DNA from: an uncultured Lachnoclostridium sp. | GTDB lineage: Bacteria > Bacillota > Clostridia > Lachnospirales > Lachnospiraceae | Assembly: GCA_947369165.1 (NCBI GenBank) | Contig: CANBKJ010000026.1 | Location: forward strand, 1 to 36,429 | Direction of reading: 5' to 3' | Length of the DNA: 36,429 bases | In this document: one piece after another, positions 16,054-36,427 of the stretch | Position numbering within the stretch: position 1 is the first letter of the stretch | How the letters are laid out: each line of letters begins with the position of its first letter | Made by a program: the position numbers and the translations under genes | The notes under the pieces: generated by a model | Seen by the model: the letters and a program-made list of their open reading frames with translations, nothing else | What the model was told of the DNA's origin: nothing | The model's database searches: none

Positions 16054-17196
16054 CTATTGTTTACCCTTATTTTTGTATGGTACCACTGCGCTGAATTTAC
16101 CATAAACACGTTTTTTATCCGCACCGGTGACATAAGCTCTGATCTTATAATAATAGGTTTTGCCAAGTTTATGTTTTATACTGGTGCATTTGATGGTCTT
16201 ACCCTTCCGGATCGTTTTTACGCGGAGGTATTTTCCACTCTTCTTTTTGCTCCGGTATATCTGGTAGCCTTTTGCCTTGCTGACCTTCTTCCACAGGAGG
16301 GCAGCCTTTCCGTCACTCCAGTATTCCGCCGAGAACTTTTTGACCTTAGCCGGCGGCACCGTAACCTTCACAATCGAACTGTAGCTGCTATAAGTTTTTC
16401 CTCCGCCCGCCTCTGTTTTAAATGCGCGGAGACGGAAGCGATGCGAGGATGCATATCCATATTTTTTAGAATAGGACGTTGTCCCTCCTTTTGTGATCGT
16501 CTTTATCTTTTTGTACTTTTTCGTTTTTTCATCGTATCGGTAAAGCCTGTATCCACTGGCGCCACTGATCTTATTCCACTTAAAATAGACGCGGTTTTTT
16601 CCTTTTTTTACCGTGGCAGTCAATTTTGGTTTCCCTAAGGCCTTTCCAGAAGGCGGAGCAGTCTCTTGCGCTGTAGATCCCACCGTCACCGGAAGGGCAT
16701 TGGACAACGTAAGTGTCACCTCCGACAGACTGCTGCTTTCCGCATACTTTACGACAGGTGCATTGCTGCCATCTGTTTTACCCGCAAATTCCACCTTGAT
16801 CTGATAATCTGTGCTGGTAGGTTTCACGGACAGAATTCCCAGTTTTGCATTCTCACTGTTTTTAAATATATCCTGATTCTTTTTCCCGGACAAAATGATA
16901 TCCACCATATAGGCACTGCCCTCTTTTTTGACCGCAGCACTTTTTACGGTACTTGGAATCGAAGAATCAAATGTGAAATCCGGCTGGCCCATCGTTCCGC
17001 TGGCAGCGGACACCCGCAGCTGTACACGCAGGGAAGTGATCGTCTTCGTCTTTCCCTCTGGTATGGTAAGCGACACAGACACATTATTTTTATCTGCGCT
17101 AAGTGTACCACTGCCGGTTCCTGCCGCTCTGGCAGCCGTGGGAACCGTGGCAGCAAGAACCAGTACTGCCACGAAGAATAATAAGAGTCTTTTCAT
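16054..17196 (-). CDS. Secreted protein: possible cohesin-like domain plus two FN3-type domains
   Basis: 380 residues. The ATG at 17196 is preceded by GGAGG. A signal peptide is clear (residues 1 to ~24, LLLFFVAVLVLAATVPTAARA). Residues about 28-170 are a beta-rich domain (VSVSLTIPEG, ITSLRVQLRV, LGILSVKP, YQIKVEFAG) whose strand pattern resembles cohesin or CBM2/3 beta-sandwiches; I cannot prove this by eye. Residues about 185-280 and 285-375 are two fibronectin-III-like domains, unusually rich in Lys and Arg (GYRLYRYDEK and GYQIYRSKKK at matching places). There is no LPxTG or other anchor. It follows the dockerin-bearing protease gene after 22 bases on the same strand, so the two are probably co-transcribed and co-secreted. 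A binding or scaffold role for the protease is inferred. Confidence 0.7.
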   Translation of the reverse strand: MKRLLLFFVAVLVLAATVPTAARAAGTGSGTLSADKNNVSVSLTIPEGKTKTITSLRVQLRVSAASGTMGQPDFTFDSSIPSTVKSAAVKKEGSAYMVDIILSGKKNQDIFKNSENAKLGILSVKPTSTDYQIKVEFAGKTDGSNAPVVKYAESSSLSEVTLTLSNALPVTVGSTAQETAPPSGKALGKPKLTATVKKGKNRVYFKWNKISGASGYRLYRYDEKTKKYKKIKTITKGGTTSYSKKYGYASSHRFRLRAFKTEAGGGKTYSSYSSIVKVTVPPAKVKKFSAEYWSDGKAALLWKKVSKAKGYQIYRSKKKSGKYLRVKTIRKGKTIKCTSIKHKLGKTYYYKIRAYVTGADKKRVYGKFSAVVPYKNKGKQ

Positions 17197-17218
17197 TTTT
17201 ACCTCCATATTAAGATCC

Positions 17219-20200
17219 TTATTTAGATCCTGTTAATGTAATATCCGGCAGAGAATCCGGAAGCTGGATGATCTGGGTATCACTGACGATACGTTCTCCT
17301 TCCAGGGTCAGGGCATCGTCCACACGGTAAAGTTCACCGCGAATCCCTTTGATCTTCTGCAGAGAATCGGCATCCCACTGACCGGGTTCTACGTAATATA
17401 CCCATGTTCCATTTGAGGTCTCGCCAAGATTTCCCTGCTCCGGCACATCGGCAAAAATAACCTGGCCTGCCTGAACCGCGTCCTCTTTTGCACCAATTAC
17501 ATTTCCTTCTGTATCATATAATACAACCACATTGTAAGCAGGATTTCCTTTATAGGTTCCCGTAAATATCAAAGAACCTTTTTTGATCACATCCGAATCC
17601 TGGCTGCCATACTTATAGTCTGCAGTCAGCACGCCAACTGCCGGCGTATCCTCTCCTGCTTTCATAAATTCCAGATTGTCTCCCGATGGTCCGCATATCT
17701 CGATCTCCTGAATGGCAATCTCACCGGACTGTGGAATGGTCATTCTCACATATCTGGCATCGTAAGTACCAATCCAGCTGTCTCTTAAACTTTCCTTCAC
17801 AGAATCAAACCACACGGTCTGTTCCCCGGTTCCAGACAATCCTGTATAACCTTCTTTTACTGCCGTCCACGCAGTTCCATCCTGACTGACTTCGATGGTT
17901 ATCCCAGACAGAGCATCTCCTAGATATTTCAATGCCGTCACCTGCTCTGTCTTGTGCATATCGATGGTAATCACTGCGTTTCCTTCGCTTTTTCCGTGAT
18001 AAGTTCCTGACTCCGTTCTGTCCTGATCCAGAATCCGGTCAATGCTGTGTACCTTCTTTTCACCGATGCTGCCTGGATTTTCTGTGTGATATCCGCTGTC
18101 AGGATCTTCTGCATCCGGAACAACCGCCACATCATCCTCCGAGGTCATGGTAGTTTCGACGGTCCATGCCTTTTTATCCAGCACACCATCTGTCTGGATC
18201 TTGACTGATCCTGCCTGAGCCGGATTGGAATAATTCAGATACTTATCCACCGCCCGTACTTCATATTCCATAACTCTGTTGTTTATGGATGAAATGGAAT
18301 CCACATATACCGTACTCTGGGCGGTATCAATCGGCTGGAATCCAACTACTTTCGTCTCTTTCTTTCCATCTGAGGTCATGCTTCTAAGAATCTCATAACC
18401 AAGTATCAGATCCTTGTTCTGTTCTGTTGCAATAGTAACCTTTACCTGGTTTGATTCTGCCTCTACAGCAGCAGTTACCACATCCTGATTCAGAATCGTT
18501 CCCTCTTCGCCAGAATGGGCGGCGCGGTAATCTCTGGCATCGTCATTTACATAATACAATGCCTTCGACTCTGCTTCTCCATATTTTTGAGCATATGCTT
18601 TGGTATCCTCGTCCGGCACCATGCCCCACCGTTGGAAAAAGGGCAGAATATTTTTATTGGCGGCGGCACAGGCGAGACGCATAAGATTCTGGTCCGTGCC
18701 TCCCTTCAATGACAAGCCTGATTGTGGTGCCTTTTCCGGATTTCTGGAATAGGTATCCACACGGGCAAAGAAGAGGTTGTTAAACTGTTCTTCATAATCA
18801 TCAAAGATGTGTCTGTCATCCGTATGATCATCGAATGCCAGATGGAGCTGCCAGTATAGTGCCAGCTGCGTACTCACATTAGAAGAGCGGCCGATGGTTC
18901 CTGATGTCACCTTTTCGTACACATTTTCATATTGGAACCTGGTCTTTCCCGGCGTCTTCGTCAGAAGCTGTGCAAAATAATTATTGGTGATCTCCGCCAC
19001 CGCATAGGTTCCCTGATTGATATTATGGCCGATCTCATGGGCAATGCCCCATCCGAAACCAGACCAGTCATTCGGTCCGCCCGCCAGTGTGGTGGATCCC
19101 CACTCTACTCCTATATGGTTGCCGGAGGCATACATAAAAGCACCAGCAAACATTCTCATATACCGAATATTCAGATGCTGTGCAGGCAGGGCATTGTTGC
19201 CTCTCCCAGTGCCTGCGTCGTCACTGAGGCCCTTATGCTGGTAGAACAACGTCATCGTGTCTTCCATTGCCTTCAGGGCGTTATTTAATTTTTCTGTCTT
19301 GTCTTCTGCATTCTTGATCGCCTCCCAGACCTGCGTGGCAGGAACCGAATACATCATATCCTTCATCATGATATCCGTCGCATTCAGGATACAGTTCTTT
19401 ACATCGTAATCATAATCTACATTTTTTGTACCGGTATGTTTTTCTTCATGTCCCGGCTGAATTGTGCTTACATAGCTCTCAAGCTGCTCTACATACGCGC
19501 TGATCGCCTCGGTCCGCTCACTACCGGTCTTTCCATATACACTTAATACCGGAATACTGCTTCCGCCGCTGATACGGACAGCATACTGGTCAGAAGAATT
19601 GTTTCCAGTATAGGCGATATAAAGCTGACCGCCCCTCTCAAATGTGTTGGAAGTGAGCTGCGGAACCGTGATCTCATTTCTCCCCACCTTCAGATTGATG
19701 CCTTTGGCGAGACTGTTTGCCTCTGCGTGATGCTGGGTCACGATCAACTGAAGATTCGTAGAATCTCCGGTTCTCTTTGTATTGTGCCCCACATAAACCA
19801 GAAGTGTCTCACCGGCGTAAGCGGTCTTTCCTAACGGCTGCCATGGATTTAAGCCGCTAAAGCCCAGATGTTTATCCTTCTGTGCTGTGATCCTGTTATC
19901 CACTTCAAGAGAAGGATCCAGCTTGGAATTCAATATCTCTCTTGCCGTCTTGATCTCCAGTGTCAGCTCCTGGAACAGCGGATGTTTTTCTCCGCTCTCC
20001 GCGTCTATCATATTGAGCCGTTCTTCCAGGGCAGCGATGGTGGCTTCTGTCACATCTTTGCGCAGAGTCGTATGCATTTCATCTTCGTAAAGTCTCATGA
20101 TATCATCTTCCAGGGAGTCGTATTTGTGAAAATGTATTTCCCCTACCATGAGATCTCCAGAACCTCCCCAGTTTCTGCCAAGGCACATGTGGATCTTATT

Positions 20201-22426
20201 CGCTGTGATCGCACCGTCAAATTTTACGATGTAATAAGGATTGTTATTATCATCTTTTTTCTGTATCAGACGGGCATTTACAATCTGTTCCTTATCTGGA
20301 TTTTCCTTGTTCCAGTATCCAATTCTCACAACGTCCATTGAAGTCTTCTCATCCACAGCTGCAAACGTCATATAGTTCATCGGATAATCATCATCCAGTG
20401 TTATAATCATTCCCTTGCTAATACTTGGGTAGGCAACTCCGTCATCCCAGTCAGACTTAACCCAGTAGGAACCGTAATTATTATCTACCAGTCCCAAAGC
20501 ACTGCCAGCGGAGGTATCCAACGGACTGCCAACCATCCTAGCACCTCCGCTTCCACCGATCGTTGCATTTACAACATGGTCGCTCAAAACACCCTCGCCC
20601 TTGGAGGTATTTAACAGCTTATACGTTGGAAGCTGCGGCAGCGCGTCAACCTTTGTGACTGCCGAGGATACAAGGGAAGCCTTGCCCCATCCCAGATCAT
20701 TCCAGCTTATGACATAAACTGAATATTCTACATTGTCCTCCAGGCCAGAAATCACATAATGGGCATCCTTCAGCTTTCCGGTTCCTGCCTGTACCGGCTG
20801 GAAATCCTCCACTACCGGCTTAAATTCTGTGTCTGTTGACTTTTTATAATATACCATATAGCCGTCTGCATCGTCCATGTCCTTCCATGACACGCTGATG
20901 GAACGGTATCCCCCCTCTGCCTTTACATAATCCGGAGGATCCGGTAGCTTCTGGGGTTTGGGAATTCCCATCTGCTCATTGGACCAGGGACTCTTCCAGT
21001 CCCCATTTACCGAACGTACCTTGATCTTATACGTTTCATAATTGATCAGATTTTTATCGTTGATCCCGCTGATCGTATGTACCGTATCGGAAACACGGAC
21101 GATCTGTGTCTCATTCTCTTTCTGGCCTTTCACGGGACCAGACACATAGACTTCATAACCTGTGATATTGGTCTGTGCACTCCAGGACACCGTCAAAGCC
21201 TTATCTTCCGATACCGGTGTATTTAATGTCGGAATGTCAAGCTGAGGAGGGGCGATGCGGTCCTCCATGTTATTGACAAACTCCACCTTTGCCAGATTGA
21301 CCAGCGGCTCCGTTTTTCTCGTACCAGTTATTTTGATCGTCACTCTCTTAACAGCGATCTGGGTTCCGAAATCCAGGATCAGTGAACCATCTGCATCCAT
21401 ATGAACCTTCGGATCCGCCGAATAGGCCCTTAATGACTTGCTCTGCTTCGATTCTGAGGCAAGAGGAAGCGTCAGTTCCTGTTCATTCCCCTTCTCATCC
21501 ACGGCAACTACTTGTGCTTCTCCGTCCACAATCTCACTGGAGACATCTTCGCCTTCTTCCGCTTTCATCGGCGCATGAATGGCAATCCCCTGTATCTTGG
21601 GTATATCTGCGGTATCCTGTGCCTCGTCCTCTGCTAATGTAAATTCAAGGGCCACTGGATTGCTGGCTGAGATCGCGGCACTGGCGTCAGATGGTTTCAG
21701 GACAATGCCTTCGGAACGACTGAGAAAGGCGTCCATGCTGCCCTCTACCGATGTCCCGCCCACGGTCTGCACTTTTCTGAGAAGTGCCAGCTTTTCGATG
21801 TTGGATTCCTGTTTTTCATCGATTCCCTGTACCAGGTTCTGCAGATCCACCAGGTCCGTACTTCCATCCTGGTTCAGATCAGTGTCACTTTTTTTCGGAT
21901 CTTCCCGGACCGCTGACAACATCAGTTCGGTATCCTTCTGGTCAATCACGCCATCCCCATTGATGTCTCCCTGACGGATCCATCCAGGACTGGCTCCTCT
22001 TCCGTTCTCATACCTGGCTGCCCAGATCTGAATCTTTGACACCCAGCCCCTGGACACCTGAACCTCCTGTTTGTAGTCAGCAAATTTATCGGACTTAACC
22101 GTAACGGTATAATCCCCCTGTGGGACATCAAACCGCAGGGTTTCCGAGGCTGCATCAGAACCGCTAAAATTCAGTTCTTTGGATTCTTCTACCTCGCCGC
22201 CACGGATCTGTACTGCTGCCTTTCCCTGAAAAGGGAACAGGCGGGAAGACCGGATTTCCACTTCCAGTCCGCTCTCTGTCTGTGACACACTTTCACGATT
22301 GGAACTTTCACTGCTCTCTATGGCTGTCTTTCCTGTCTTGGAACCGGCGCTTGTCGGTACAGCTGCCGCTGCCCAGGTCTGAAAAGCCAGACATCCGGTG
22401 AGCAGTATAGCGATTAATCTCCTCAT
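17219..22426 (-). CDS. Secreted multidomain M60 (enhancin-like) metalloprotease with dockerin
   Basis: 1,735 residues from the ATG at 22426, which has AAGGAAG 7 bases upstream; the open frame reaches 22471. Domains in order: signal peptide (1 to ~26); a PEGA/CarboxypepD_reg-like beta domain (~55-140); a type I dockerin (~152-205) with two complete calcium loops, DINGDGVIDQKD and DLNQDGSTDLVD; a beta domain (~250-390); two FN3 domains (~400-600); a discoidin-like domain (~610-790); the M60 peptidase (~860-1300) with zinc motif HEIGHNINQ at 1130-1138 and a following Glu; an FN3-like region; a C-terminal F5/8 type C domain (~1480-1620); and a beta-rich tail. No cell-wall anchor is visible. M60 enzymes cleave O-glycosylated mucins. 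A mucin-targeted role is expected from the family and the host habitat, not shown here. Confidence 0.9.
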   Translation of the reverse strand: MRRLIAILLTGCLAFQTWAAAAVPTSAGSKTGKTAIESSESSNRESVSQTESGLEVEIRSSRLFPFQGKAAVQIRGGEVEESKELNFSGSDAASETLRFDVPQGDYTVTVKSDKFADYKQEVQVSRGWVSKIQIWAARYENGRGASPGWIRQGDINGDGVIDQKDTELMLSAVREDPKKSDTDLNQDGSTDLVDLQNLVQGIDEKQESNIEKLALLRKVQTVGGTSVEGSMDAFLSRSEGIVLKPSDASAAISASNPVALEFTLAEDEAQDTADIPKIQGIAIHAPMKAEEGEDVSSEIVDGEAQVVAVDEKGNEQELTLPLASESKQSKSLRAYSADPKVHMDADGSLILDFGTQIAVKRVTIKITGTRKTEPLVNLAKVEFVNNMEDRIAPPQLDIPTLNTPVSEDKALTVSWSAQTNITGYEVYVSGPVKGQKENETQIVRVSDTVHTISGINDKNLINYETYKIKVRSVNGDWKSPWSNEQMGIPKPQKLPDPPDYVKAEGGYRSISVSWKDMDDADGYMVYYKKSTDTEFKPVVEDFQPVQAGTGKLKDAHYVISGLEDNVEYSVYVISWNDLGWGKASLVSSAVTKVDALPQLPTYKLLNTSKGEGVLSDHVVNATIGGSGGARMVGSPLDTSAGSALGLVDNNYGSYWVKSDWDDGVAYPSISKGMIITLDDDYPMNYMTFAAVDEKTSMDVVRIGYWNKENPDKEQIVNARLIQKKDDNNNPYYIVKFDGAITANKIHMCLGRNWGGSGDLMVGEIHFHKYDSLEDDIMRLYEDEMHTTLRKDVTEATIAALEERLNMIDAESGEKHPLFQELTLEIKTAREILNSKLDPSLEVDNRITAQKDKHLGFSGLNPWQPLGKTAYAGETLLVYVGHNTKRTGDSTNLQLIVTQHHAEANSLAKGINLKVGRNEITVPQLTSNTFERGGQLYIAYTGNNSSDQYAVRISGGSSIPVLSVYGKTGSERTEAISAYVEQLESYVSTIQPGHEEKHTGTKNVDYDYDVKNCILNATDIMMKDMMYSVPATQVWEAIKNAEDKTEKLNNALKAMEDTMTLFYQHKGLSDDAGTGRGNNALPAQHLNIRYMRMFAGAFMYASGNHIGVEWGSTTLAGGPNDWSGFGWGIAHEIGHNINQGTYAVAEITNNYFAQLLTKTPGKTRFQYENVYEKVTSGTIGRSSNVSTQLALYWQLHLAFDDHTDDRHIFDDYEEQFNNLFFARVDTYSRNPEKAPQSGLSLKGGTDQNLMRLACAAANKNILPFFQRWGMVPDEDTKAYAQKYGEAESKALYYVNDDARDYRAAHSGEEGTILNQDVVTAAVEAESNQVKVTIATEQNKDLILGYEILRSMTSDGKKETKVVGFQPIDTAQSTVYVDSISSINNRVMEYEVRAVDKYLNYSNPAQAGSVKIQTDGVLDKKAWTVETTMTSEDDVAVVPDAEDPDSGYHTENPGSIGEKKVHSIDRILDQDRTESGTYHGKSEGNAVITIDMHKTEQVTALKYLGDALSGITIEVSQDGTAWTAVKEGYTGLSGTGEQTVWFDSVKESLRDSWIGTYDARYVRMTIPQSGEIAIQEIEICGPSGDNLEFMKAGEDTPAVGVLTADYKYGSQDSDVIKKGSLIFTGTYKGNPAYNVVVLYDTEGNVIGAKEDAVQAGQVIFADVPEQGNLGETSNGTWVYYVEPGQWDADSLQKIKGIRGELYRVDDALTLEGERIVSDTQIIQLPDSLPDITLTGSK

Positions 22427-22982: not shown

Positions 22983-23810
22983 TCACCAGTGCTTTTCCAG
23001 CGTTTCCAGCCCTTTGTAGAGCCCTGTCGCCACGATGCACAGGATCACAATGCTTAAGATTACATAATCCAGTTTAAACACCTGGCTTCCGTATACGATC
23101 AGATAGCCCAGCCCCGCATTGGCGGCGAGAAATTCACCAATAATGACGCCTACCAGGGACAGTCCGATGTTGACCTTCATATTACTGACGATGGTGTGGG
23201 CATTTCCCGGAAGAACAATATACCTGAGTATATCAATTCGGTTTCCTCCCAGCGTACAGATCAGTTTGATCTTTTCCTCTTCCACGGAACAGAAGGCTGT
23301 AAACAGTGTGATAATACTTCCGAAAACAGCCACTGATACAGCCGCCACTATAATGGTCTTCATATTATTTCCCAGCCAGACGATAAACACCGGGGCAAGG
23401 GCGGTCTTGGGCAGACTGTTTAGTACCACCAGATAGGGTTCACTCACCTTTGCCACTGTTTCATTCCACCAGAGCAGAATGGCAGTGAGAATTCCAAAAA
23501 ACATGATAAAAAAGAAGCTTAAAAAGGTTTCAAACAACGTCACCCCGATATGATAGTAAATACTCCCGTCTGCCGAGAGCTGTAGGAAACATTCTGCCAT
23601 ACGGGAGGGACTACTGAAGACAAAAGGATCAATGATCCCAAAATGAGCGGTCACCTCCCAGACCAGGATAAAAAGAATAAATATGCTGATCTGAAGTATC
23701 CTCACCTTACGTTTCTGACGAATACAGGAAAGGATAAATTCCCTCTGGCGCTGCGATACGTCTCCGGAAAGACTACGTTTTAATTTTCGGATCGATATGT
23801 TATTTTCCAC
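22983..23810 (-). CDS. ABC transporter permease, NitT/TauT (SsuC-like) type
   Basis: 275 residues starting at GTG (23810), with GGAGGAATTGAACG upstream; that ribosome binding site lies inside the end of the ATPase gene, which overlaps by 11 bases. About six membrane segments are visible (for example ISIFILFILVWEVTAHFGI). The C-terminal half has the EAA-type loop (LICTLGGNRIDILRYIVLP) and the family motif VGVIIGEFLAANAGLGYLIV. Relatives import sulfonates, taurine, nitrate, thiamine precursors or similar small molecules. The binding protein that would define the substrate is not in the window. Confidence 0.88.
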   Translation of the reverse strand: MENNISIRKLKRSLSGDVSQRQREFILSCIRQKRKVRILQISIFILFILVWEVTAHFGIIDPFVFSSPSRMAECFLQLSADGSIYYHIGVTLFETFLSFFFIMFFGILTAILLWWNETVAKVSEPYLVVLNSLPKTALAPVFIVWLGNNMKTIIVAAVSVAVFGSIITLFTAFCSVEEEKIKLICTLGGNRIDILRYIVLPGNAHTIVSNMKVNIGLSLVGVIIGEFLAANAGLGYLIVYGSQVFKLDYVILSIVILCIVATGLYKGLETLEKHW

Positions 23811-24570
23811 CGTTCAATTCCTCCCATATTTCATTGAAATAATTTTGAAATTCCGGTGTACTTCTCGCCTTAAACGGAGTAATCTCCCCCTCATAACTGA
23901 GGTCGATGCGGATCTCCTTTTTCAGCTGCGCTGGTCTTGAGGTGAGGACCAGAACCCGGTCTCCCATACTGATGGCTTCAGAAATATCATGGGTGATCAG
24001 GATCGCCGTCTTTTTTTCTTTTTTTATAATCTTCCAGATATCGTCCGATACCTCCAGTCTTGTCTGGTAGTCCAGTGCGGAAAATGGTTCGTCCAGAAGA
24101 AGCAGGTCCGGTTCCATCAACAGTGTACGGATCAGGGCAACTCTCTGACGCATGCCGCCGGAGAGCTCCGATGGTTTTGCCTTTTCAAAAGACACCAGGC
24201 CATAGGTCTGAAACAGATGATTCAGCAGCATGATTTTCTCCCCGTCCTGGTTTTTCTTCTGGATTGATAAGCCAAGCGCCGCATTCTGCCAGGTATTTTT
24301 CCATTCCAGAAGATGATCCCTCTGAAGCATGTAACCAATATTCACACCCGATTTATCCCGCTGTGTATTTCCGATCAAAACCTCTCCGGAATCCGGCTCG
24401 ATAAGGCCGGCAATGATAGAAAGCAGGGTGGATTTGCCGCAGCCGCTGGGACCGACGACAGCAAGAAATTCTCCGTCTTTCACATCAAAACTCAGATCAT
24501 CTAAAGCGAGGGTTTCTCCGTTTACACTGTGGTAGGAATAGGATATATGACGAAATGACAAAATATTTCC
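23800..24570 (-). CDS. ABC transporter ATP-binding protein, NitT/TauT (SsuB-like) type
   Basis: 256 residues from ATG 24570, chosen because GGGGAGG lies 7 bases before it; the open frame continues to 24621 but that part overlaps the promoter. Walker A is GPSGCGKST, the Q-loop is MLQRDHLLEW, the signature is LSGGMRQRVALIRTL, Walker B is LLLLDEPFSALD and the switch His is in LITHDISEAISMGDRV. LQRDxLLxW is typical of the SsuB/TauB/ThiZ group. It drives the permease encoded just downstream. The two genes form a two-gene operon divergent from ldhA. Confidence 0.9.
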   Translation of the reverse strand, partial: GNILSFRHISYSYHSVNGETLALDDLSFDVKDGEFLAVVGPSGCGKSTLLSIIAGLIEPDSGEVLIGNTQRDKSGVNIGYMLQRDHLLEWKNTWQNAALGLSIQKKNQDGEKIMLLNHLFQTYGLVSFEKAKPSELSGGMRQRVALIRTLLMEPDLLLLDEPFSALDYQTRLEVSDDIWKIIKKEKKTAILITHDISEAISMGDRVLVLTSRPAQLKKEIRIDLSYEGEITPFKARSTPEFQNYFNEIWEELNGGK

Positions 24571-24600
24571 CATACGCTGCCTCCCCTGTGGATATACCTT

Positions 24601-24629
24601 ATTGTATGAAAATTTTGTCATTTTGTGAA
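24601..24629 (-). promoter_or_regulatory. Promoter of the NitT/TauT-type ABC operon
   Basis: On the minus strand TTCACA (24624-24629), a 17-base spacer and TACAAT (24601-24606), each one base from consensus. It overlaps the divergent ldhA promoter. Confidence 0.65.
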
Positions 24630-35368: not shown

Positions 35369-36427
35369 TTAATTGATACTTAATCCAGCGCTGGCGTATC
35401 CTGCAACTGTATTGATCAAAGTTAATCCACTTGCCGTTGCTGAAAATACCAGCATCAACCGTGTTCGAGCCGTGACCGGAATATTTAGTCCGGTAAGAGC
35501 ACCATTTAACAATGTTCCTACGGATATAATTCCAGTTAACGATGGTGACAGGTTGATCAGTGTTCCCGCAATCGGGGTAAATACGTTGTTTGGCGTTGTA
35601 GACTGATAGATCTGCGCATTTACCGTGACAGTGGAACCAACCAATGAAAGTGCCGCTGTTGTACTAAAGAATGCACTGAACGAGGTAATGGTACCCGCAC
35701 GCGGAACCTGAAAAGCAAAGTTGGAAAGCGTTCCGCTGGCATTTGTAATATCAATTGTGGACCCCAGCAGCGTAAGACCCTGGGCACTGCTTCCAAAGCC
35801 AACAAAGGCAGGAAGTCCTGCAAGGCCTCCGGCGATTGTCGTCATAGAGATAGGAAGACCCGAAGCAAACGGAATGATCGCTCCTGTGCCTGCAGCACCA
35901 GTAGGTCCTGTTGCCCCTGTCGGACCCGTTGCTCCATCCGCTCCTGTCGGACCGGTTGCTCCATCTGCTCCCGTAGCTCCTGTCGGGCCCGTTGCTCCGT
36001 CTGCTCCCGTAGCTCCGGTCGGGCCCGTTGCTCCATCTGCTCCATCTGCTCCTGTGGCTCCTGTTGCCCCAGTTGCTCCATCTGCCCCTGTCGGACCTGT
36101 TGCCCCGTCTGCCCCTGTGGCTCCTGTCGGGCCAGTTGCTCCATCTGCTCCTGTGGCTCCTGTCGGACCCGTTGCTCCATCTGCCCCCGTGGCTCCGGTC
36201 GGACCCGTTGCTCCGTCTGCTCCTGTGGCTCCGGTCGGACCCGTTGCTCCATCCGCTCCTGTGGCTCCGGTCGAACCGGTTGCTCCGTCTGCCCCCGTCG
36301 CTCCTGTCGGACCCGTTGCTCCATCTGCCCCTGTGGCTCCGGTCGGACCCGTTGCTCCGTCTGCTCCTGTGGCTCCGGTCGGACCCGTTGCTCCATCCGC
36401 TCCTGTGGCTCCGGTCGAACCGGTTGC
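35369..36427 (-). CDS. Collagen-like protein with BclB-type C-terminal domain (5' end outside window)
   Basis: 352 residues plus stop are visible; the N-terminus lies beyond the right edge. Residues encoded by 35882-36427 are uninterrupted Gly-X-Y triplets (about 60), built from a 12-residue, 36-base unit of the type [12 protein letters not shown] with occasional GST. They lead in frame into about 170 residues starting [21 protein letters not shown], with [31 protein letters not shown] and [12 protein letters not shown]. This matches the C-terminal domain of BclB-type exosporium glycoproteins. Such proteins form trimeric filaments on spore or cell surfaces, with the C-terminal head folding first. 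The Thr-rich triplets could be O-glycosylated. A shorter start at the internal Met (35845) is not real. Confidence 0.88.

Follow-up and report, generated by a model that had tools for sequence, protein, structure and literature searches.

The stretch of DNA analysed here (the window) comprises 36,429 nucleotides from an uncultured Lachnoclostridium sp. (assembly GCA_947369165.1, contig CANBKJ010000026.1), whose 2.8-Mb genome is 92.6% complete. On its minus strand lie the gene of a dockerin-bearing M60 metalloprotease and then that of a small secreted partner protein, which is preceded by a good ribosome-binding site (Table 1). The gap between the two genes is 22 bases from ATG 17196, with GGAGG five bases upstream, and 10 bases from the in-frame ATG 17208. 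A reading of this DNA made from its letters alone (the sequence-only reading) had described a dockerin-bearing mucin protease followed after 22 bases by a possible cohesin-like partner. The observation itself was confirmed and its overall interpretation is supported, the spacing holding if the partner starts at ATG 17196.

Table 1. Features of the protease–partner gene pair in the window.
Feature	Position	Strand	Evidence
Secreted M60 metalloprotease, 1735 amino acids (signal peptide, dockerin, FN3, M60 catalytic, F5/8 type C)	17219..22426	-	Open reading frame, Pfam, start codon; signal peptide by eye
Type I dockerin, residues 153-206; loop 1 DINGDGVIDQKD, loop 2 DLNQDGSTDLVD	21809..21970	-	Sequence, profile searches
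Peptidase_M60 catalytic domain	18623..19435	-	Pfam; HEIGH at 19025-19039
Secreted partner protein, 380 amino acids (alternative in-frame ATG 17208 gives 384)	16054..17196	-	Open reading frame, start-site sequence; signal peptide by eye
Cohesin-fold domain, partner residues 25-172	16681..17124	-	AF2 model and structure search, family alignment
Two basic FN3-like domains, partner residues 186-380, probable cell-surface attachment module	16057..16641	-	Composition, same-genome similarities, fn3/GH85_C in homologues
Ribosome-binding site GGAGG of partner gene	17202..17206	-	Sequence

The protease, for which a start at ATG 22426 is predicted, matched Peptidase_M60 (PF13402) in Pfam at 52.8 bits (E 5.6e-14, cut-off 25.8), and Pfam also placed FN3 and F5/8 type C domains in it. 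The zinc motif HEIGH stands at residue 1130, with a Glu 15 residues further on. When named genomes were searched with the alignment of the protease, 61 homologous loci were obtained; HExGH is present in 58 of them, and the three without it (L090, L125 and L126) have frames that are truncated or interrupted. Mucin is the predicted substrate. A 2012 survey of M60-like/PF13402 mucosal metallopeptidases gives a type 1 dockerin for 2 of 415 M60-like proteins in its Table 4, and a figure legend notes Clostridium and Bacillus sequences without evidence of a surface anchor; the word cohesin has no occurrence in its main text (PMC3267712). These proteins, a few of them with a type 1 dockerin, belong to the same catalytic family as the window protease, and a pair like the one described here might explain the absent anchor of the surveyed clostridial members.

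The dockerin had been described as a complete type I repeat pair with Gln-Lys and Leu-Val at the recognition positions, and the residues are as claimed: both calcium loops carry Asp or Asn at positions 1, 3, 5, 9 and 12. The Dockerin_1 profile (PF00404) gave 18.8 bits on the protein (cut-off 22.9) and 23.4 bits in a genome search with frame neighbours. A dockerin was found in all 56 N-termini examined, namely the window and 55 of the 61 homologous loci, the other six being without N-terminus; it is therefore no chance motif. Loop 2 is complete in all 56 dockerins and loop 1 in 38, if each of the five positions, taken by alignment column, may be D, N, E or S. Position 10 of repeat 2 is always aliphatic (I 29, L 23, M 2, V 2), and in 55 of 56 that of repeat 1 is a polar or small residue. 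Near-symmetry is common among cellulosomal dockerins; the family-wide asymmetry of the two repeats seen here suggests a single conserved binding face.

The comparison of the partner's N-terminal beta domain with cohesins held for the fold and failed for the sequence profile. In the AF2 model, structure searches and the family alignment point to a jelly-roll cohesin fold. Foldseek with the window domain gave 13 matches at E up to 0.001, comprising nine cohesins and four non-cohesins, and collagen-binding domains were also among the matches. The TM-scores to the nine cohesins were moderate (0.35–0.61 by query length). With VIA-align, cohesin-bearing chains occupied the first 45 rows for both models examined, that of the window and that of the group in which the domain is fused to the protease. 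The partner protein had no Pfam or NCBIfam match over cut-off, PF00963 was listed by Pfam in none of 57 family members, and a profile search of PDB sequences gave no sequence-level proof of cohesin identity; the best PDB sequence match of the partner itself was an Fn3-like protein at E 0.06, to its C-terminal part. Since neither Pfam, the PDB profile search nor hhalign gave a sequence link, the cohesin argument is carried by the fold, and the modelled domain is a cohesin fold that is not filed as a PF00963 member.

The pairing of the two genes is fixed. Among 61 related genomes, the protease is full-length in eight (in one split over two contigs), and the cohesin profile hit the same eight and none of the remaining 53. 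Each of the eight is either the window or a locus from which the profile was seeded; the informative part is the absence in 53 genomes. In these counts the gene was taken as absent from ten further genomes among the 18 matched by the protease search, which match only in FN3-type stretches, and from all but seven, matched along the whole protein, of the 38 matched by the partner search. In G005 the partner is 55% and the protease 69% identical to those of the window, and the pair lies beside tryptophan-synthesis genes (by eye), the window pair having glycogen synthase and ABC transporter genes as neighbours; because the flanks differ, the pair itself is the unit.

In the named genomes, four of the 61 loci (L090, L110, L125 and L126) end before the partner region, which leaves 57 with a sequenced 3' side; the pairs L090/L091 and, by contig accession, L122/L126 each represent one protease divided between two contigs. 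The partner is the next gene in 42 of the 57 (gaps of -29 to +209 bases from the longest frame), and the cohesin-fold domain is fused to the protease C-terminus in 14. The protease of L102 is interrupted and followed by another frame that contains the domain; these frames were searched separately. An iterated profile run against 3514 open frames of 94 loci gave 83 matches, never more than one per locus, and recovered 56 of the 57, a partly circular figure given that the seed alignment was assembled by gene position; L101 was not recognised and was placed by alignment and eye only.

A wider search of 299 genomes of the family found the cohesin profile at 16 places. The 15 besides the window are all at a dockerin-bearing M60 protease (14 directly downstream, one inside), and 13 of them were new, L175 and L176 being the seed loci L086 and L078. 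Copies in G425 and G531 and a second in G529, which a local search did find, were missed, and copy numbers and absences from this search are thus lower bounds. PF13402 gave 34 M60 matches in 33 of these genomes, one of them (G529:C35) below the Pfam cut-off: 29 have an N-terminal dockerin, four have none (L220, L222, L223 and L226), and one without N-terminus (L227) carries a fused cohesin. L219 is cut off at its 3' end and was excluded. At the other 28 dockerin-bearing M60 proteases the profile found the partner in 27 cases, and at the four dockerin-less ones in none (Fisher p 1.4e-4, shared ancestry left out of account). The presence of the partner goes with the dockerin rather than with the protease itself.

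Behind the conserved cohesin, the C-terminal modules are exchanged. Two basic FN3-like domains had been claimed for the window partner; they are indeed very basic (K+R 25 and 31 versus D+E 3 and 3, pI 10.4), and Pfam fn3 gave no score on this protein, so the label FN3-like rests on the homologues. In 82 partner proteins and fused tails (81 and the window; Pfam, E 0.001, overlapping categories), fn3 was found in 18, GH85_C in 17, choline-binding repeats in at least 8, FIVAR in 6, SLH in 5 and a dockerin in 1, with no match in the window protein. Of 81 tail ends, classed with L102, L175, L176, L231 and the truncated loci omitted, 17 end in a strongly hydrophobic helix and, after it, at least three basic residues, 35 are FN3-like by an ad hoc motif, 5 are SLH-like and 24 fall into none of these classes. 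These 24 include tails with choline-binding repeats, two with a second dockerin, nine named fused forms and L178. In the window's own genome, stretches resembling the FN3-like part of the partner end other secreted proteins, including three GH43 proteins and one GH2 protein (L239-L242), with Pfam fn3 over cut-off in one of these four (L239); they are perhaps a general surface-retention module of this organism. Two fused M60-cohesin proteins (L221:10150-11208 and L227:1550-2266) have an additional dockerin-like repeat, of a different type, at their end, as if to dock onto a further cohesin.

The reading that probably accounts for these observations is a one-to-one surface-display pair, in which the cohesin of the partner holds the dockerin-bearing protease on the cell surface. 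The protease would be secreted without an anchor of its own, and its N-terminal dockerin would bind the cohesin domain of the next gene's product. The C-terminus of the partner would then hold the complex on the surface, through basic FN3-like domains presumed to bind the wall in the window and through a transmembrane tail or choline-binding repeats in relatives, with SLH repeats in some fused forms. Host glycoproteins would thereby be cut next to the cell.

Several results weigh against this surface-display reading. Hhalign of the whole partner family against 30 true cohesins of PF00963 gave Prob 0.94 percent (E 0.058), and the subgroups of the family are linked unevenly to one another. The FN3-type subgroup reached 97.4 percent (E 1.4e-11) with one transmembrane group, 18.7 with the fused group and 1.4 with a second transmembrane group (L111, L116-L118), which in turn reached 52.6 with the fused group. 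What ties in the fused group and the second transmembrane group is the AF2 model of the former and the iterated profile, which was started from an alignment already containing both. A mirror-tree comparison of 51 dockerin-cohesin pairs found no coupling beyond ancestry (partial r 0.04, residual r 0.06, p 0.12; all p from permuted residuals, uncorrected for four sets), nor did it in 39 two-gene pairs (-0.04, p 0.20) or 30 FN3-type pairs (0.11, p 0.48). At L231 a dockerin-bearing M60 protease adjoins a gene for a secreted protein to which the profile gave no match. No recognised anchor was found in 9 of the 15 named fused forms, nor in L178, and surface attachment by FN3 is in the literature only a postulate, as made in PMC11525138 for the FN3 beside the cohesin of C. 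perfringens NanJ. Lastly, the dockerin is kept in all 13 named fused forms with a visible N-terminus, and anchoring therefore cannot be the whole story there; cis contact or chain formation is possible in these proteins.

In a different account, the contact between dockerin and cohesin is a structural clasp that closes or stabilises the protease from N- to C-terminus, in cis when fused and in trans when encoded by two genes. It would be needed for folding, activity or substrate grip, and attachment would be secondary. A dockerin retained despite a covalently attached cohesin fits this account, as do the fused forms without recognised anchor, and the 12 fused forms were the only set to show mirror-tree coupling (partial r 0.38, residual r 0.34, p 0.009). 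The cohesins of the two-gene loci, however, often precede unrelated surface-type modules that would be superfluous for a clasp, and this account is unlikely. It is distinctly improbable that the two products share a substrate without touching, the cohesin-fold domain being a jelly roll that binds a ligand or glycan, and the dockerin-like repeat no more than a calcium-stabilised spacer. A common fold proves no function, and the missing Pfam cohesin match, the uncoupled two-gene sets and the non-cohesins and collagen-binding domains among the Foldseek matches would all agree with such an arrangement. It is contradicted by the invariably complete loop 2 of the dockerin, by a pairing that tracks dockerin rather than protease and by the unbroken run of cohesin-bearing chains at the head of both VIA-align results.

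The dockerin might also bind another cohesin of the cell, with the neighbouring product acting otherwise. A genome-wide check for other dockerins and cohesins, as the sequence-only reading had proposed, found one dockerin (profile of the window dockerin, E up to 0.1), one copy of the partner-type cohesin and no clear cohesin scaffold: no PF00963 match was over cut-off in this 92.6% complete genome, and two were sub-threshold. One of these (E 0.03, G000:C28) lies in a frame of 1042 residues that gave no cohesin match in a further check. The other is a secreted protein of 431 amino acids (L243:1141-2436, G000:C7:18940-20232) that PF00963 matched weakly when the genome was searched (17.8 bits, E 0.0057; cut-off 24.1). 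It has a cadherin-like domain, and by eye it starts with a signal peptide and has a hydrophobic segment at the C-terminus. This core surface protein may carry a second cohesin that has escaped detection, and it could still bind the dockerin. A Pfam scan of the protein itself, however, listed no cohesin at E up to 1, and 35 of the 37 genomes of the genus, the window's own among them, encode it, only seven of these also having the protease, so it is not a dedicated partner; the dockerin is tracked by the neighbour instead. As the receptor of the window dockerin, the 431-residue protein is very improbable.

There is a slightly better than even chance that the partners form a cohesin family unseen by Pfam, which provides a single mucin protease with a dedicated one-to-one dock and carries exchangeable surface modules behind it, in Lachnospiraceae as well as some other Clostridia. 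In several lineages the dock would have been fused onto the protease with the dockerin kept, making the contact in cis or building surface chains of proteases.

The sequence-only reading had gone further and proposed a cellulosome-like module aimed at host glycoproteins. Cellulosomes and mucinolysomes are defined by a scaffoldin with several cohesins that gathers several enzymes, and what was found here is one dockerin and one cohesin copy. The pair is accordingly not a member of either class, and it may work like one. The mucinolysomes of Limousia are predicted cohesin-dockerin complexes for mucin in gut bacteria, with 3-6 scaffoldins, up to 12 cohesin domains and many dockerin-bearing carbohydrate-active enzymes (CAZymes), and were found with Pfam's models of both domains (Akresi et al. 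2026; PMC12997984). They also include dockerin-bearing secreted peptidases and cSca5, a cohesin protein anchored to the wall through LPxTG, and the term M60 is absent from the main text (PMC12997984). The window pair resembles them in a proposed cohesin-dockerin contact that would be aimed at host mucin and in a dockerin-bearing peptidase, and differs in having one dockerin, one Pfam-invisible cohesin and one protease, paired as next genes.

The X82 cohesin proteins of C. perfringens with FN3 (NanJ and GH84C; PDB 2w1n, 2vo8 and 2jh2) each carry, as described in the same source, their own glycoside hydrolase (PMC12997984). The window cohesin protein, in contrast, is enzyme-free, and its gene is paired with that of a single protease. 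In Clostridium thermocellum, OlpA and OlpC are single-cohesin cell-surface anchors and part of a large plant-fibre cellulosome; to our knowledge, they are not paired with one protease. By their PDB titles (3ul4 and 4dh2) they are type I cohesins binding a dockerin, and dockerin binding is likewise proposed for the window partner. The one relevant item in the portion of PMC5314468 consulted is a C. perfringens dockerin paper among its references. A literature search, open-access and in part of best-listed matches, found no description of an M60-dockerin protein with a neighbouring cohesin. The one-to-one pairing, the cohesin family missed by Pfam, the exchange of surface modules and the fused forms appear to be new.

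Other observations concern the surroundings of the pair and other genomes. Genes for an ABC transporter permease and ATPase lie at 22983-24621 of the window, immediately upstream of the protease gene; transporter-like genes precede the protease in L175 too, and not in G005. A collagen triple-helix repeat protein (Pfam Collagen, E 1.9e-27) at 35372-36427 is cut by the contig end, and a protein of 339 amino acids at 257-1273 combines a PLD-like domain with the beginning of a ResIII helicase domain that reaches model position 115 of 164; this protein may be truncated. Three further genomes of the family, G505, G470 and G409 (L245-L255), gave 29, 31 and 19 matches to the dockerin profile in other secreted proteins (E up to 0.1, counting half repeats). 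Small secreted cohesin-plus-dockerin proteins occur there (L251:2936-3712, L252:2338-3135 and L254:12708-13433), the gene of each directly preceding one whose product ends in a hydrophobic segment. Judging from the places examined, this set looks like a separate adaptor system.

If true, the surface-display reading would provide clostridial M60 proteases with the anchor that they seem to lack and show how Lachnospiraceae keep a mucin protease on the surface, a question that the 2012 survey leaves for the Clostridium M60-like proteins it draws (PMC3267712). The docking idea is directly testable with two small purified domains. Surveys of cohesins with Pfam models, as in the mucinolysome work (PMC12997984), would miss the partner family, and cohesin-dockerin systems may therefore be undercounted.

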